Below are positions 20,483 through 27,284 of a stretch of DNA of 32,906 nucleotides, piece by piece; the stretch's first letter is position 1; the number at the start of each line of letters is the position of its first letter. The stretch is from an uncultured Chitinophagales bacterium. Its GTDB lineage: Bacteria > Bacteroidota > Bacteroidia > Chitinophagales > JAHDHT01. The translations under genes were made by a program, and so were the position numbers. Location of the stretch: assembly GCA_938023075.1 (NCBI GenBank), contig CALHDG010000283.1, forward strand, positions 1 through 32,906. Reading direction: 5' to 3'. The notes beneath the pieces are model-generated. The model was not told the DNA's origin. It ran no database searches and saw nothing but the letters and a program-made list of their open reading frames with translations.

Positions 20483-21271
20483 TTACAACGCCTTTAATAA
20501 TTGCCGGGCTTTTTCAAAATAGGTTTCGTTGGGTGAGATACTTTTCAACAGATTCTTCGTTTGTGTATGCTCTCCTTTTTTAAGATGGCATAAAGCGAGA
20601 TACCAACTTGCCATATCGGTATAATCGTTATGCTTAGTGTATAATTGTTGAAAGGTATTCATCGCTTCATCTATTTGATTTAACTCCATTTGTGCGCAAC
20701 CTTTAAAGACCAAGCCCCATGGATTATCAGGCTTTTCACTTAAAGATTTCTCAAATAACGGAATAGCTTTTTGGTAATTTTTACCTTTATATTGATTAAT
20801 CGCCTTTTCAAAATCAGTTAAACTACCAATTTCATCATGGGTATTCAATACTTTTTCTGCCTCAAAATAGTTATCGAAAAGCCGGTCATTTTTATCAGGT
20901 AAAAACAAGAACAACAACAAGGCGGCTGCGGCAGCCAAAGTAGCAAAAGGTAGTAAACGTTTAATGATGGATGGTTTGGCAGCGGCTTCTTCGTGGGCTG
21001 TTTCCGGATAAAGGTCATTTTCAATTTCTTCTGAAAAATATTGATTGCCGAGCTTATCTAAATTAGCTTTAAAAGCTGTATCGATATTAGTGGTCTCTTT
21101 CGGGCTAGTTAAGTTATCTTGTAAAAATATATCCGTGTATTGATAAAAATTTACCTGTTTTTGTAAGGCTTCATCTTTTTCCATTTGCGTTTCAAATGCC
21201 TTTAAAGCCGCTCCCGAAAGTTTGCCTTGTATATATTTTTCGATAATTATATCAGTATTGTCCAATTCCAT
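20483..21271 (-). CDS. Membrane TPR protein, probable anti-sigma factor
   Basis: The 262-residue product has a cytoplasmic N-terminal part of about 100 residues beginning IIIEKYIQGKLSG, a start typical of Bacteroidota proteins paired with ECF sigma factors, one transmembrane segment at ~106-125 (LLPFATLAAAAALLLFLFLP), and TPR-type helical repeats at ~145-262 (KAIPLFEKSLSEKPDNPWGL, EAMNTFQQLYTKHND). By position, 36 bases after the ECF sigma gene on the same strand, it is inferred to hold that sigma factor at the membrane and to sense periplasmic partners through the TPRs. No zinc-finger anti-sigma motif (HxxxCxxC) is present, so the binding mode differs from the classical ZAS family. Confidence 0.7.
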   Translation of the reverse strand: MELDNTDIIIEKYIQGKLSGAALKAFETQMEKDEALQKQVNFYQYTDIFLQDNLTSPKETTNIDTAFKANLDKLGNQYFSEEIENDLYPETAHEEAAAKPSIIKRLLPFATLAAAAALLLFLFLPDKNDRLFDNYFEAEKVLNTHDEIGSLTDFEKAINQYKGKNYQKAIPLFEKSLSEKPDNPWGLVFKGCAQMELNQIDEAMNTFQQLYTKHNDYTDMASWYLALCHLKKGEHTQTKNLLKSISPNETYFEKARQLLKAL

Positions 21272-21307: not shown

Positions 21308-21871
21308 TCAATTTTTCAATTCTTTATAATCAGGATGTTGTTCAAAAGAAATTCTTAATTTTTTTCTGCAATCCGACATCCGCTGGTAAACTGCATTTGG
21401 TTTTATGTTCAACTTTGCAGCAATTTCATCACCTTTCAGACCATCTTTATACATCATATTTAAAATATCCTGGCAATTCTTTCCTAACTTACCAAAACAT
21501 TCCGCTAAAATCTTGTCCATACTTTCTTTAGTCTGTATGGTTTCGTTCTCATTAGCATCCTTACTTATATATCCAACGTCATTTAAAATTCTTAGCCAAA
21601 TATTTCCTCTATTTAACTTGTTCAGCCACTTGCGCCTGTAAATTGGGTTCATATAGGCACATATAGATACTGTTAGAACTAATTCTTTACACTTTTGATA
21701 TACAATAATCAAGGCTTCTTGAAAAACATCGCGAGCATCATCAAGATTGCCCTTATTTTTTAACACATAATTTTTGCATTGAGGACTGCATTTATCATAA
21801 ATCTCCTGTATCAACACAAAATCATTACTGCACAAAGCCCTTATATATTTTTGATCTTCATGCACTTCCAT
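21308..21871 (-). CDS. ECF-type RNA polymerase sigma factor
   Basis: The 187-residue product has a region 2 with DDARDVFQEALIIVYQK and region 4 at ~115-180 (CFGKLGKNCQDILNMMYKDG followed by LKGDEIAAKLNIKPNAVYQR), the helix-turn-helix that reads the -35 element. Its length and the lack of regions 1 and 3 are normal for ECF factors. It is the first gene of a pair with the membrane TPR protein, and the LamG, LRR-like and giant adhesin genes follow on the same strand, so these secreted proteins are candidate targets. I cannot see a shared promoter that would prove this. Confidence 0.85.
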   Translation of the reverse strand: MEVHEDQKYIRALCSNDFVLIQEIYDKCSPQCKNYVLKNKGNLDDARDVFQEALIIVYQKCKELVLTVSICAYMNPIYRRKWLNKLNRGNIWLRILNDVGYISKDANENETIQTKESMDKILAECFGKLGKNCQDILNMMYKDGLKGDEIAAKLNIKPNAVYQRMSDCRKKLRISFEQHPDYKELKN

Positions 21872-22016
21872 AACACGGTCTACAATAATTTAATAAAAAA
21901 AATTTCAATTTCCACATAAGAATTTTTAAGGCTGTTGGATAGATAATTAAACAAGCAATAAATAACGCAAACTTATGAAATAAGTTAAACAAAATGGTTT
22001 CAGATTTAAGAAAAGC

Positions 22017-22156
22017 ACTCAACTAAAGCCCTTCTGGTTAAACTGGGGCTAGAGAAAACACTTTATGATTCCGGCTTGTTTATGGCTAAACAAGGTGGCT
22101 AAAGAAAACTCAAATAGATAATAGTAAACGGCATAAAAAACAATTCGCCGCTTGCT
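22017..22156 (+). promoter_or_regulatory. Structured leader element A, upstream of the subtilase
   Basis: This and the elements at 23868, 26197 and 27160 share sequence and pairing. Here a first hairpin pairs AGCCC with GGGCT, a second is a perfect 8-bp stem CTTGTTTA/TAAACAAG (22075-22082 with 22087-22094) carrying GGCTAAACA, and a third pairs AGTAAACGGC (22123-22132) with GCCGCTTGCT (22147-22156), one A-C mismatch and one G-U. About 30 bases then lead to the start codon, with a TTAAAACAAATT stretch common to A, B and C. Confidence 0.5.
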
Positions 22157-22185
22157 CAATTATGTAAAATTAAAACAAATTGCAA

Positions 22186-23841
22186 ATGAAAATAGTCATT
22201 ATAAATATATACATATTATTAGCTGTAGTAATTTTTTGTCGAGCGCAGCCGCACCAAATCATACTACAATTGGATGAAGATATAACAATAGACCAACTCA
22301 AATCATCGCAAACAATATCTCCATTCGCCTCATACCAGCAACTATCTGAAAGTTTAAACATATGGCTTATTGAAATACCTGCAGCCTCAACAACCCTAAA
22401 AAAAGAAAGTATACTAACTAACTTAAAAGAGCATCCTCACATAAAAACAGCTCAATTGAACGAAGCAGTTGAATTAAGGAATACACCGAATGATATGGAG
22501 TTTGCCGATCAATGGCAATATAACAATACTGGCGAAGCCCTTGGCATAATGGATGCTGATATGGATGCCCTGAAAGCATGGAATTTAACAACAGGTGGTA
22601 AAACGGCTTTAGGAGATGAAATTGTAGTAGCCATAATTGATGGAGGTGTTGATCTGAACCATCTTGATTTAATCAATAATTTATGGACTAACAATCAGGA
22701 AATACCCAACAACCAAATAGATGATGACCAGAACGGATATGTGGACGATTATTATGGCTGGAATTTTAATAAAAAAAATGGTGATGTTGGCAATGGTGGT
22801 TATGGGCATTTCCACGGCACCCCGGTTGCTGGTATAATAGGTGCAGAAGGTAATAATTATAAAGGAGTTTGTGGTGTAAACTGGCAAGTAAAAATAATGA
22901 ACCTGGCTGCTAACCGAACCGTTGCTAATGTAATAGAAGCTTACGACTATGTTTTGAACATGCGAAAACGCTACAGTGCAACTAATGGACAGCAAGGCGC
23001 TTTTGTAGTAGCTACCAATGCTTCTCTCGGTATTGATTATGGTAAGCCTGCCGACCACCCACTTTGGTGTGCTATGTATAATGCATTAGGTGAGGCAGGT
23101 GTTATAAATGTAGCCGCTACTGCCGACCTTTTTATTAATGTAGATTTGCGAGGTGACATACCCACCACTTGTAGTAGTGATTTTTTAATTAGCGTAACCA
23201 ACACCAACAATCGAGATGAATTAGCGATTGACGCTGCCTATGGAAGACGGCATATAGATTTAAGTGCGCCTGGTAATGGTACTTTTACTACAATCAACAA
23301 TAGTGGCTATGGAGGTTTTGGTGGTACGTCAGCAGCGGCACCTCACGTTGCTGGAGCGGTAGCCTTATTGTATGCCACACCAAATCAAAATTTTATGCAA
23401 ACCGTTCAGCAAAACCCATCGGCAGCCGCCTTATTAGTTAAAGATTTTATTTTAAATGGTGCTGACCCAATTGCAGACTTATATTATAAAAGTGTTACTA
23501 ATGGCAGGTTAAATTTATTTAATAGTTTATGCGAATTGGAAAATTATTTTGATAGCAACAGTTGTGTTGAAGCAGAAGAAGTTTTTCTGCAATTGGATAA
23601 ATTACTTATAAACAATGCTAACCGTGAAATGCACATTCATTTTGAAATGCAAGGCAAAAGCAGTTTAAAAATCAGGTTGTTTAATAGTGCCGGAGCTTTG
23701 GTTCATCAACAAATTTTGCCACAAATTAACAGTGGCAGGCATAAACTTCAGCTTTCATCAGCTCAATTAATAAATGGAATATATTTTTTAAATATAGACA
23801 GCAAAAACGCCTCATTAAATCAATCCATTTTAATTCAATAA
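22186..23841 (+). CDS. Secreted S8 (subtilisin-type) serine peptidase with C-terminal sorting domain
   Basis: The 551-residue product has a signal peptide, an N-terminal propeptide-like part to ~115, and an S8 catalytic domain: Asp152 (AIIDGGVD), His210 (HGTPVAG) and Ser382 (GGTSAAAPHVAG). The place of the oxyanion-hole Asn (AATAN in related T9SS subtilases) reads AATAD, giving Asp314. The last ~85 residues have a T9SS-like tail without the usual YPNP (KIRLFNSAGALVHQQ, NGIYFLNID). Start ATG 22186 is chosen over the in-frame TTG six bases upstream, to agree with neighbours. The Asp substitution is also found in the proprotein convertase PC2, so activity is possible but may be altered. It is the first gene of the RNA-element locus; its own leader is element A. 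Confidence 0.88.
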   Translation: MKIVIINIYILLAVVIFCRAQPHQIILQLDEDITIDQLKSSQTISPFASYQQLSESLNIWLIEIPAASTTLKKESILTNLKEHPHIKTAQLNEAVELRNTPNDMEFADQWQYNNTGEALGIMDADMDALKAWNLTTGGKTALGDEIVVAIIDGGVDLNHLDLINNLWTNNQEIPNNQIDDDQNGYVDDYYGWNFNKKNGDVGNGGYGHFHGTPVAGIIGAEGNNYKGVCGVNWQVKIMNLAANRTVANVIEAYDYVLNMRKRYSATNGQQGAFVVATNASLGIDYGKPADHPLWCAMYNALGEAGVINVAATADLFINVDLRGDIPTTCSSDFLISVTNTNNRDELAIDAAYGRRHIDLSAPGNGTFTTINNSGYGGFGGTSAAAPHVAGAVALLYATPNQNFMQTVQQNPSAAALLVKDFILNGADPIADLYYKSVTNGRLNLFNSLCELENYFDSNSCVEAEEVFLQLDKLLINNANREMHIHFEMQGKSSLKIRLFNSAGALVHQQILPQINSGRHKLQLSSAQLINGIYFLNIDSKNASLNQSILIQ

Positions 23842-23867
23842 TTAAAAAACAAAATAGATACGAAAAA

Positions 23868-24005
23868 GAAAATCAACTAAATCAAACCGGTTTCTCGCTT
23901 TCGAGGAAAGTTAAAAACCAAGCAACCACCGGCTAAACAGAGGGTGCTGAAAAAACTCCAAAAAAAAGAGTAAACAGCTTAAAAAAAATCAACCGCTGCT
24001 TACTC
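23868..24005 (+). promoter_or_regulatory. Structured leader element B, upstream of the first lipoprotein
   Basis: The AGAAAA..TCAACTAAA start (shared with A) is followed by a CTCG/CGAG hairpin near 23893, a CACC/GGTG hairpin (23927-23930 with 23943-23946) whose loop contains GGCTAAACAG, an AAAACTCC stretch, and a third stem GAGTAAACAGC (23968-23978) with GCTGCTTACTC (23995-24005), one A-C mismatch at the same place as in A. TTAAAACAAATTT and the start codon follow. Confidence 0.5.
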
Positions 24006-24034
24006 CATTTTATAAAATTAAAACAAATTTAATA

Positions 24035-24940
24035 ATGAAAATTTTAAAATTAAAATCTATTTTTTTTAGCCTGATGGCTATTGTAATGGTAACTGTATTT
24101 TTAACTTCTTGTGAAAAGGACTACGTAAAAGTGAATCCAAATGAGAACATTAATGAAATTACATTGCAACAATTGAAAACATCTAAACAATTATGGAATG
24201 AGAAATTTTCTGACAAAATCACTTTACTTAATTACAAATATGTAGGGACGGTCGAAAATGAGCAAGACATGCAAGAGGCACTTAATAAAATAGCTGATGA
24301 AGCTAAGATAGTTGCGAGTGGTGATCTTGACCAACCGGAATCAGTAAAAGTTGAAGTGCTTAGAGAGAATAGTGCAAAAGCTGCTATAACGAAAGATAAT
24401 TTACGCAACTATATTAAGGATGGAATTGAAATTAGTAATAAAGTAATCGCATTGAATTGGGATAAAAATGGAGAACAATTTACTACCTATTGTATTGCTA
24501 ATAAAGAAGGTATTGTTTGGGATAATATATTAGGTGGTGTATTGGCTGTCGCCCCTGAAATTGAAGAAGAAAGCGGGATTGACAGCAACTCCAATAAAAA
24601 TGGTGCGGGTTGGAAAAAATGGCAAAGAAGGGGATGGAAAATTAAGGCTTTTTGGGGAAGTACTATAGGAAAATTAGGATGCACATTAACCATATACTAT
24701 AATACTGGAGGCCCGGTTACCAATTCAGATGTTGAAGATTATGCATGGATAAGTGGTGGTAAAGGTGTATCAGAAAGCAAGCTGCTTGTTAAAACTGGCT
24801 CATTCGCTAAGGCACAGTATGCTTTGGCTGTAGCTGGTATAACAGGTAAAGTTAATTTTGACAAAGGCTCTTTTACAGCAAGCGCCAGCGGAGCTTATGA
24901 CGAGGTTCGTAATGGAACATTTTCTCTTTATCCTAACTAA
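24035..24940 (+). CDS. Lipoprotein of unknown family, paralogue 1
   Basis: The 301-residue product has a lipoprotein signal (MKILKLKSIFFSLMAIVMV) with lipobox LTSC (Cys26). Residues ~27-175 are closely shared with the next gene (NPNEN.NE.TL.QLK, then LLNYKYVGT, LDQPESVKVE, ISNKVIALNWDKNG, FTTYCIANKEGIVWDN). The C-terminal ~120 residues diverge strongly from it, keeping only FWG...G.LG...T.YYN and a QYALAV block. No known domain is recognised. The final part is Gly/Ser/Thr-rich and probably beta-structured. It is preceded by element B and followed by a strong terminator, so it forms its own unit; a surface-exposed protein with a constant base and a variable outer domain is inferred. Confidence 0.75.
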   Translation: MKILKLKSIFFSLMAIVMVTVFLTSCEKDYVKVNPNENINEITLQQLKTSKQLWNEKFSDKITLLNYKYVGTVENEQDMQEALNKIADEAKIVASGDLDQPESVKVEVLRENSAKAAITKDNLRNYIKDGIEISNKVIALNWDKNGEQFTTYCIANKEGIVWDNILGGVLAVAPEIEEESGIDSNSNKNGAGWKKWQRRGWKIKAFWGSTIGKLGCTLTIYYNTGGPVTNSDVEDYAWISGGKGVSESKLLVKTGSFAKAQYALAVAGITGKVNFDKGSFTASASGAYDEVRNGTFSLYPN

Positions 24941-24972
24941 CCATAACTTACAATTGAGATTAAAATAGAAAT

Positions 24973-25005
24973 AACAATCAGGCTCTGCAAAAGCCTGATT
25001 GTTTT
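24973..25005 (+). terminator. Rho-independent terminator after lipoprotein 1
   Basis: A perfect 12-bp stem AACAATCAGGCT / AGCCTGATTGTT (24973-24984 with 24992-25003) with T tail. Nearly the same hairpin follows lipoprotein 3 at 27063. Confidence 0.85.
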
Positions 25006-25045
25006 AATCTTTAACTTTATTATAAAACTTCAAACAAATTTGAAT

Positions 25046-25954
25046 ATGAAAATTTATAAATTAAAATCAATCTTATTTAGCCTAATGGCTATTGCAATGG
25101 CGACTGTATTTTTAAGTTCCTGCGAAAAAGATTATGTAAAAGTGAATCCTAATGAAAACCTAAATGAAACTACATTAGATCAGTTGAAAAGTTCTCAACA
25201 AAGGTGGAATGAGCAATTTTCAGAAAAAATCACTTTGCTTAATTATAAATATGTAGGAACTATCGAAAATGAGCAAGACAAGCAAGAAGTACTTAAAAAT
25301 ATAGCTGATGAAGCTAAGATAATTGCAAGTGGTGAACTTGACCAACCAGAATCAGTAAAAGTTGAAATGCTGGATGAAAATAGTGCAAAAACTACTATAA
25401 TAAAAGATAACTTACGTAAATATATTAAAGATGAAATTGAAATTAGTAATAAAGTAATCGCATTAAATTGGGATAAAAATGGAAAACAATTTACTACCTA
25501 TTGCATTGCTAATAAAGAAGGTATTGTTTGGGATAATTTATTAGGTGGTGTATTGGCTGTTGACACTGATGGTAAAGAAGAGAACGGGACTATTAGCAAC
25601 TCCAATAAAATGGGTTCCAGATATTATACTTGGTACAGCTATAATTTGCCAATTAAGTCTTTTTGGGGTGGTTCAGCAGGAAATTTGGGTTATAAAATAA
25701 CTGTATACCATAATGATGGAAAAACGGTTAACAAAACTGCTACTGAAAGTTGGGCAAAGTTTAAATATGGCAGAAGTGTAGCAAAGTCTTGGGCATCTAT
25801 TAACAGTGGTCGTGATTATGGTAAGATACAGTATGCTTTAGCTGTAGGTAATCAAGATGCATGGGTTGGTATTCTTGATCGTAAAGCCGACGCTCGCGGT
25901 CTATATACTAAAGTAAAAAATGGCACAAAAATTCTTTATCCCCAACTACCGTAG
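25046..25954 (+). CDS. Lipoprotein of unknown family, paralogue 2
   Basis: The 302-residue product starts at ATG 25046 by alignment with its paralogues (the frame also offers a TTG six bases earlier). Signal MKIYKLKSILFSLMAIAMA, lipobox LSSC, Cys26. Residues ~27-175 match the first paralogue closely at both protein and DNA level, and the rest diverges (KSFWGGSAGNLGYKITVYHN, IQYALAVG, NGTKILYP remain). Unlike its neighbours it has no leader element: only 105 bases separate it from lipoprotein 1, and those contain a terminator, so expression by read-through, or from a promoter in that gap, is implied. No function is known to me. Confidence 0.75.
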   Translation: MKIYKLKSILFSLMAIAMATVFLSSCEKDYVKVNPNENLNETTLDQLKSSQQRWNEQFSEKITLLNYKYVGTIENEQDKQEVLKNIADEAKIIASGELDQPESVKVEMLDENSAKTTIIKDNLRKYIKDEIEISNKVIALNWDKNGKQFTTYCIANKEGIVWDNLLGGVLAVDTDGKEENGTISNSNKMGSRYYTWYSYNLPIKSFWGGSAGNLGYKITVYHNDGKTVNKTATESWAKFKYGRSVAKSWASINSGRDYGKIQYALAVGNQDAWVGILDRKADARGLYTKVKNGTKILYPQLP

Positions 25955-26123
25955 TTCACAATAGAGATTAAAGTTTTTTCTTTTCAAAAGATTTTACGCA
26001 ATAGTACTATAATATACTTTGGCTGAATTTGTAATACTGTACTATACACTACGATAAGATTGAAAATTTGATTTTTATTCGGTTTAAGAATTTTATACCC
26101 ATAAGAATATTAAACTCGTTAAA

Positions 26124-26186
26124 ATGCGCCACTTCAAAAAAGCATTCAAAAAAAACACTAAAAGAAACGACGATGTAAATTATTAA
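26124..26186 (+). CDS. Possible 20-residue basic peptide before element C
   Basis: ATG 26124 to TAA 26186 reads MRHFKKAFKKNTKRNDDVNY. It is strongly basic and lies immediately before element C. There is no clear ribosome-binding signal, none of the other elements has an equivalent at the same place, and a chance ORF in A-rich DNA is likely. Confidence 0.15.
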   Translation: MRHFKKAFKKNTKRNDDVNY

Positions 26187-26196
26187 CAAATGAAAA

Positions 26197-26323
26197 ACGG
26201 TGACCTTACTTCAAGGAGGTGAGTTAACCCAGCAACTCCAGGCTACACAGGGAGATTAAAAACTACCCAACAAAAAATGAGCAAAGCGATTTTTACTCAG
26301 ACAATGAATACCGCCTTACTCAT
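26197..26323 (+). promoter_or_regulatory. Structured leader element C, upstream of the third lipoprotein
   Basis: The first hairpin is ACCT/AGGT (26203-26206 with 26217-26220), the second CTCC/GGAG (26236-26239 with 26251-26254) with GGCTACACAG in its loop, and the third ATGAGCAAAGCG (26277-26288) with CGCCTTACTCAT (26312-26323), two mismatches of which one is at the A-C position of A and B. TTAAAACAAATTTT and, 37 bases after the third stem, the ATG follow. Confidence 0.5.
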
Positions 26324-26359
26324 CATTATTAATTAAAACAAATTTTAAACAAAAATTTA

Positions 26360-27064
26360 ATGAAAATTTTAAAATTAAAATCAATTTTATTTGGGCTAAT
26401 AGCAGTTTTTGCTGTTACCGCTTTATTAACTTCTTGCGAGCAAGATGCACTTGATATTCCCGATACTGTAGAATCAGATGTAAATGAACTATCCTTTAAA
26501 CATAACAGGGATATAGAAATTTTGAGCGAAAATGGACGTAGTAAAGCGACCATTACTGCTTCTACCAATGATGTATCTTTATTGAATGAAATTAAGCAAG
26601 GAGATTTTAAGATTATTCCGATTTTTGAGCAACCAGCGGAAGACTTAAATCAATTTACCGATGACGGGACTTCAAATATTTCCGAAGATGCAGAATCTTT
26701 TACTGGAGGAGTATCTATGGGTATTTCTGTAAAGAATGTAGAATTAGAAGAGGGTGCAATTGGATATTCAATTGACGTTAAGGAAACTATTTCCAGTCGT
26801 TCGTCGGGAAGCAAGATGTTTTGGAGCTCAGCTAATAATGTCGTGATAGAAAGATTCTTTGGATGTGTCAGAGCAGAAATTTGGCAAAAAAAATCATGGA
26901 ACACTGGCTATTCCTATAAAAAGAATGATAATAAGTGTAATAGGAAGTGTACAATTTACTGTGGTGGAAGTTCTGATCAATTGCAAGTTAAAATGAGTGG
27001 TTCTGCTGCGTATAGGATTACCTTTGGTAACGACTGTGGGAAATTATATAGGCAAGGGTGTTAA
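26360..27064 (+). CDS. Lipoprotein of unknown family, distant paralogue 3
   Basis: The 234-residue product keeps the signal peptide of the two previous lipoproteins (MKILKLKSILFGLIAVFAV, lipobox LTSC, Cys26) but has a different middle (VNELSFKHNRDIEILSENGR, IKQGDFKIIPIFEQPAEDL). In the C-terminal third a short FW(S/G)S...GC......W/Y pattern recalls the others, followed by a Cys-rich end (NKCNRKCTIYCGG and NDCGKLYRQGC) with six to seven Cys, which suggests disulfides outside the cell. It is preceded by element C and followed at once by a terminator that overlaps its stop codon. Shared signal and leader with a replaced body suggest duplication followed by cassette-like exchange or rapid divergence. 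Confidence 0.7.
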   Translation: MKILKLKSILFGLIAVFAVTALLTSCEQDALDIPDTVESDVNELSFKHNRDIEILSENGRSKATITASTNDVSLLNEIKQGDFKIIPIFEQPAEDLNQFTDDGTSNISEDAESFTGGVSMGISVKNVELEEGAIGYSIDVKETISSRSSGSKMFWSSANNVVIERFFGCVRAEIWQKKSWNTGYSYKKNDNKCNRKCTIYCGGSSDQLQVKMSGSAAYRITFGNDCGKLYRQGC

Positions 27065-27097
27065 ACAATCAGGCTTTACCCCAGCTTGATTGTTTTT
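27063..27097 (+). terminator. Rho-independent terminator after lipoprotein 3
   Basis: AAACAATCAGGCT (27063-27075) pairs with AGCTTGATTGTTT (27083-27095), one G-U pair, with a T6 tail. It overlaps the stop codon by two bases and is almost identical to the terminator after lipoprotein 1. Confidence 0.85.
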
Positions 27098-27159
27098 TAT
27101 TACTATTAAATATGAAAACAATAACACTCAATGCAAGCAAAACTACTATGCGAATTATT

Positions 27160-27220
27160 AAAAACGGTGATCTTATTTGAAGGAGATGAGTAAACCAAGC
27201 TACCCCTGGCTATGCTTATA
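27160..27220 (+). ncRNA. Shortened element D, followed by a terminator and no gene
   Basis: AAAACGGTGATCTT matches element C, and its first hairpin ATCT/AGAT (27170-27173 with 27184-27187) covaries with ACCT/AGGT of C. A second AAGC/GCTT pairing encloses TGGCTAT. The third stem of the other copies is missing; instead a terminator follows at 27225. It is either a degraded leader or a small RNA of its own. A 22-residue open frame (27112-27180) ends inside it and is probably not real. Confidence 0.4.
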
Positions 27221-27224
27221 ACAG

Positions 27225-27261
27225 AAACTGTCCGGTGTTAATTTAAAGCCGGGCAGTTTTT
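27225..27261 (+). terminator. Rho-independent terminator after element D
   Basis: AAACTGTCCGG (27225-27235) pairs with CCGGGCAGTTT (27249-27259) with one G-U pair, then a T run. Confidence 0.85.
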
Positions 27262-27284
27262 ATTAATAAAAATAAAAAAAGTAA

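Follow-up and report, generated by a model that had tools for sequence, protein, structure and literature searches.

The genome of an uncultured Chitinophagales bacterium (Bacteroidota) contains 21 copies of a structured element of roughly 110-170 nt, which lies in the predicted 5' UTR of genes that nearly all encode exported proteins, or between cistrons. We consider it fairly probable that these copies are a family of cis-acting leader RNAs, in which a core would be bound by a factor, a long hairpin (P4) would set translation or mRNA stability, and several copies would be transcribed from ECF-type promoters. The element probably controls the amount of each exported protein made. As is generally expected of cis-regulatory leader RNAs, the copies exhibit compensatory base-pair changes, and their place and orientation relative to the genes that follow, which are related in function, are consistent.

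Copies of the element and their range

Four of the copies, A to D, are located in the window, which is the whole stretch of 32,906 nucleotides analysed here (contig C283 of a 6.12 Mb genome in 288 contigs, whose T9SS sorting domains and Flavo-1 RNA point to Bacteroidota). DNA searches with B and C as queries already matched other contigs. Two covariance models were used: R1, a model of the core made from ten aligned copies, and R2, which includes P4 and was made from eleven aligned full-length copies. R1 revealed 17 genome-wide matches at E < 0.001, and C108, C127, C247b and C247c were added by R2. The complete set comprises A, B, C, D, C273, C126, C85, C186, C204, C193, C247x, C247a, C247b, C247c, C23, C201a, C201b, C249, C76, C108 and C127; due to gene duplication behind several of them, these are not 21 independent events. 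The weakest members are C201b (28.2 bits), C247c, of which P4 alone is typical, and D.

The presence of four elements in the window, as stated in the preliminary description, is confirmed by R2 scores far above chance (Table 1). B and C belong to the training set of R2, while A and D do not and are therefore independent matches. A had been placed at 22017; its core begins at about 21990, and it has an extra hairpin. D was correctly described as lacking its third stem, which is P4, and as having a terminator instead. It also lacks the 3' arm of P3, and the next gene does not start before 27695. Cut in the P3 loop and without a gene, D looks like a relic.

Table 1. Elements and adjoining features in the window.
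Feature	Position	Strand	Basis and remarks
TPR protein, anti-sigma-like N-terminal segment, one hydrophobic stretch	20483..21271	-	Pfam TPR_19 5.8e-11; gene order repeated at four further copies
ECF-type sigma factor, divergent from A	21308..21871	-	Pfam Sigma70_r4_2 3.5e-07
Putative ECF-type promoter of A (TAAGAA-N15-GAT..TTAAAC)	21917..21952	+	motif common to C85, C186, C247x and C247a at similar relative place
Element A	21990..22161	+	degenerate P1-P3 core, extra hairpin, intact typical P4; R1 E 7.7e-4, R2 47.6 bits, fold
P4 of element A	5' arm about 22122-22132, 3' arm 22147-22157	+	fold
Subtilase (S8) with T9SS C-terminal sorting domain, gene of A	22186..23841	+	Pfam Peptidase_S8 2.6e-28, Por_Secre_tail 4.6e-06
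Element B	23883..24009	+	P1-P2-P3 core, P4 at 23968-24005; R2 110.9 bits, pattern, fold
Orphan lipoprotein, gene of B	24035..24940	+	lipobox LTSC; no Pfam/NCBIfam family above cut-off
Possible ECF-type promoter of C (TAAGAA...GAATATTAAAC)	26085..26115	+	loose match
Element C	26193..26325	+	P1-P2-P3 core and P4; R2 103.4 bits, fold
Orphan lipoprotein, gene of C	26360..27064	+	lipobox LTSC; 30% identity over 1-218 with the gene behind C273
Element D	27160..27222	+	P1-P2 core, cut in P3 loop; R1 6.1e-8, R2 41.2 bits
Intrinsic terminator directly 3' of truncated D	about 27224..27262	+	fold z -4.51, long stem and U-tract

No credible homologue was found by R1 in 60 relatives, or by R2 in 398 genomes of the order, 395 of the phylum and the 40 closest genomes, which are overlapping sets. 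Those R2 matches in other genomes that were examined (L107-L109, L123) proved to be hairpins of the terminator type or to lack a gene at the right place. Where a search spanned more than 40 genomes, just 8-80 candidates per genome were scored, so that single weak copies could be missed, and the same family was represented in the sets by only one further genome, with a completeness of 83%. A pattern scan of genome contigs (GTDB) gave 7 scattered matches in other phyla vs. about 5 expected, none of them credible, and the same kind of scan gave 0 matches in viral contigs. Further copies had been expected across the Bacteroidota, but several hundred genomes yielded none that is credible. As far as tested, the element family is thus lineage-restricted.

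Rfam 15 supports the earlier statement that the elements fit no known riboswitch class. At the gathering threshold the window gave Flavo-1 only, away from the elements, and at a permissive E-value no relevant match was obtained for the elements and eight copy loci. The Flavo-1 RNA (RF01705, 3886-3960 on the minus strand, 65.9 bits and above the gathering score) is a structured RNA of the same window; it has a family of its own, which Rfam classifies as sRNA and which the elements do not match. Orphan cis-regulatory RNA motifs have been collected by comparative genomics, with 104 candidates (PMC2864571). Like the element, they are covarying structured RNAs upstream of a set of genes. However, those motifs occur across species, whereas the numerous copies of the element all come from one genome, and no Rfam 15 family matches them.

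Fold and covariation

The fold comprises, in this order, P1 enclosing P2, which is capped by a NAG triloop, then P3, a linker of variable length and the long P4. Arms of P1 are GGTTTG/CAAACC (C193), GGCAAC/GTTGCC (C247x) and GTTGC/GCAGC (C204), and examples for P2 are CTGCTTT/AAAGTAG, CTTACTT/AGGTGAG and TAACTTT/AAAGTTA. P2 is followed by AAGC and then by P3 (CCC/GGG, CTCC/GGAG, GTTC/GAAC, ACTC/GAGT), which encloses a RGCTA(A/C)ACA loop. AAGC, this loop and the NAG triloop are the near-invariant parts of the core. The arms of P4 are GAGTAAACGGC/GCCGCTTACTC, and in C249 GGGTAAAGCG/CGCTTTACCC. Its loop has 12-20 nt in most copies, and this variable length disfavours P4 as a DNA dimer operator. 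The 3' end of P4 lies 26-38 nt from the start codon, where measured, and the sequence downstream of it is A/T-rich without a U-tract. MFE folds of single copies recovered P1, P2 and P4 in most cases; folded singly, some copies reach only weak z-scores (C85 -0.61, C193 -0.40, C201a 0.09).

The three stems proposed earlier had to be reassigned. The first, reported to covary between C and D, was read in a competing register (ACCT/AGGT); the pairing that is backed by other copies and by the MFE folds is P2, with CTTACTT/AGGTGAG in C and CTTATTT/AGATGAG in D. P1 (GGT/ACC), which encloses P2, was not among the stems listed. The second stem (CACC/GGTG in B, CTCC/GGAG in C) is P3, and the third is the tip of the 11-bp P4 (GAGTAA.C.GC/GC.GCTTACTC). 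The A-C mismatch said to be always next to it exists in six copies, while others have G-C or A-U.

In the MAFFT alignment of 11 copies (A3) 18 of 30 pairs show changes on both sides, with a score of 0.352 vs. a shuffled mean of 0.152 (0/500) and a sharp covariation peak at zero slide. With all 21 copies, 21 of 27 pairs change on both sides, which gives 101 double-change cells vs. 41 (0/500 shuffles), in an alignment that was fitted to the model and hence leans towards its pairing. Therefore, an alignment-free arm-swap test was run, in which the 3' arms are exchanged among the copies. It gave 0/20,000 for each of P1, P2 and P4, and a weaker result for P3 with corrected anchors (216-360/20,000, about 0.01-0.02). 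The top pair of an all-pairs covariation scan (columns 20-24; C-G, U-A, G-C) closes the P2 loop and leaves the NAG triloop; this pair was absent from the input structure. The earlier claim of a conserved RNA with compensatory changes, probably acting in cis, is supported by these tests, which do not fully remove the ancestry common to duplicated copies.

Within P1-P3, 21 G-U pairs stand against 4 A-C mismatches, which points to an RNA on the strand of the gene. In P4 the relation is reversed (3 G-U vs. 11 A-C), and much of this excess is one A-C step in six copies that is perhaps inherited. The prevalence of A-C in P4 might reflect a non-canonical pair that is conserved, or else an activity on the opposite strand. 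A leader peptide was ruled out, because six elements lack an ATG, the frames contain stops and the lengths are not multiples of 3. The element is thus not coding; conservation of the coding potential alone had been named in the preliminary description as speaking against an RNA.

The many diverged copies in one genome, with none found elsewhere, could also mean that a DNA element serving mobility or recombination (REP/MITE-like, or a cassette site) lies before these genes by chance. Relics are present (D, C201a), and lipoproteins with different mature parts have leader and signal peptide in common, as might be expected of such an element. We regard this explanation as very improbable. Against it speak the compensatory changes and the strand-specific G-U excess in the core, the fixed orientation and ATG spacing, and the loop of P4, which varies in length unlike that of a dimeric operator.

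Genes and promoters adjoining the element

The element is followed by 21 genes or gene remnants, nearly all of which encode exported proteins. An export-signal heuristic was passed by 18 of 19 downstream genes vs. 7 of 39 background ORFs (Fisher 1.7e-8, a value inflated by duplicates and based on a background of few loci), in agreement with the recurrence before exported proteins noticed earlier. The one gene that fails, behind C76, carries a visible lipobox. The products include the subtilase, two M43/M12B-type metallopeptidases with T9SS tails, a LamG protein with a HELGH motif, a DUF4214 lipoprotein, PKD and HYR proteins, and orphan lipoproteins; the genes belong to several apparently unrelated families. 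The lipoproteins have a common signal peptide (like MKILKLKSIFFSLMAIVMVTVFLTSC). The proteins of C247a, C247b and C247c match that of C over the first ~45 residues only. Since the signal peptide is common and the mature parts are not, leader and signal peptide appear to move as one unit.

Both the C247 array (L010 2889-4997) and the window (24035-27064) contain lipoproteins with a constant signal peptide and differing mature parts. Some of these proteins have ends that are short and rich in Cys, and match no Pfam family; the arrays look like a shuffling surface repertoire. Similar terminators (ACAATCAGGCT...GCCTGATTGTTTT) follow members of the arrays at 24973-25003 and 27063-27095 of the window and at about 5033-5075 of L010. 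A paralogue of B's lipoprotein (25046-25954, plus strand) has no element; the terminator-like hairpin at 24973-25003 lies upstream instead, which makes it a natural comparison gene. Two genes look decayed: the one behind C201a (L098 about 3790) has an early stop in the lipoprotein signal peptide, and the one behind C76 (L100 4908-5117) encodes 70 aa vs. 390 aa in the paralogue of C127.

A divergent ECF sigma factor and a TPR protein, the putative anti-sigma partner, adjoin five copies (A, C85, C186, C249, C247x). The genome encodes about 11 such sigma paralogues, five of which have the element at their divergent start; the other paralogues examined (C41, C163, C8, C144, C162, C273) have none there. 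A TAASAA-N15-GAT motif is located 59-81 nt upstream of the element at A, C85, C186, C247x and C247a. This motif was picked after inspection and occurs 21 times in 139 kb, and therefore we only propose it as a candidate promoter. A scan for sigma-70 promoters gave nothing above shuffles. The copies C76, C108 and C127 (L100, L127, L128) have an upstream block in common (CCCGACAACACTC...AAAGGTAGGGAATCA) that does not resemble the ECF-type motif and hints at another type of promoter.

Control of surface or secretion genes by ECF sigma factors, as proposed here, is reported for SigP of Porphyromonas (PMC7712824) and for the SM6 promoters of Flavobacterium (PMC9723704). The cited parts of both papers describe no structured leader. 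The 5' UTR predicted with the element exceeds 150 nt, compared to a median of 24 nt given for F. psychrophilum (PMC9723704).

Possible modes of action

Four copies lack P4 (C193, C23, C201b, D), whereas A and C247c have P4 and a poor or absent core. Both kinds together suggest that core and P4 may do separate jobs. As an alternative to a sensing leader, the element might be a passive stabiliser or processing signal, whose hairpins protect the mRNA or mark cleavage between cistrons without any sensing. The strong P4, its near-constant distance to the ATG, its occurrence alone in C247c and the intercistronic copies are consistent with that, but neither the sequence-conserved loops of the core nor the copies with core and without P4 are accounted for, and we consider such a role improbable.

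A putative H-type pseudoknot (AGC/GCT plus CCC/GGG), in which AGC/GCT would be a second stem crossing P3, is predicted from sequence complementarity. AGC/GCT is complementary by eye in 16 of 18 copies, with one compensatory change (C201a), and so nearly invariant that it offers hardly any covariation (arm-swap 6906/20,000). H-type pseudoknots with A-rich loops are known from small riboswitches. Being small, with a possible H-type pseudoknot and an A-rich loop, the core resembles what we take to be the architecture of the preQ1-I and SAM-II riboswitches. In contrast to these it has no Rfam match, an extra enclosed P1-P2 arm and a distant P4, and its genes are unrelated to queuosine or methionine.

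A small-molecule riboswitch, with the P1-P2-pseudoknot core as aptamer and P4 or the linker as expression platform, would account for the compact covarying core with its near-invariant parts, for this likeness and for the terminator at D. We nevertheless regard it as unlikely. The genes have export in common and not a pathway or metabolite, the element is, as far as tested, limited to one genome, unlike most riboswitch classes, and most copies lack an expression platform, as P4 ends before the start codon without covering it and a terminator is found nowhere but at D. The linker (ACTC) can pair with the 5' arm of P4 (GAGT) in some copies, but this alternative fold is not kept in C, C126 and C186. 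The switch between stopping and continuing that had been suggested is not supported either: the terminator is present in 1 of 21 copies, the geneless D, P4 has no U-tract, and B is close behind a stop codon.

P4 leaves the start region open and presumably lies close to the upstream border of the footprint of the ribosome. We thus favour a model in which a factor recognises the core and controls translation or mRNA stability. B, which starts about 26-40 nt past the stop codon of the subtilase, as well as C247b and C247c, which follow closely on coding genes, are intercistronic; a role in transcription start is unlikely there, and this argues for an action after it. According to this proposal several copies would be transcribed from ECF-type promoters under the neighbouring sigma/anti-sigma pair, the core would be bound by a protein (less probably by a ligand), and P4, from its place at the margin of the 30S footprint, would set translation or mRNA stability, so that the exported proteins would be made together. 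More tentatively, and somewhat doubtful at present, the copies might form a genome-private RNA regulon, in which a sensor-like leader was duplicated before about 20 exported-protein genes and coupled to ECF sigma/anti-sigma modules as a common post-transcriptional gate on surface proteins.

Structured leader RNAs are normally recognised through their recurrence across species, and such surveys would miss this element, which as far as tested is restricted to one lineage and for which the support comes from many covarying paralogous copies inside one genome. One RNA ties together exported proteins such as proteases and diverse lipoproteins and adjoins ECF sigma modules. With this element, the idea that Bacteroidota control exported proteins post-transcriptionally can be tested directly.
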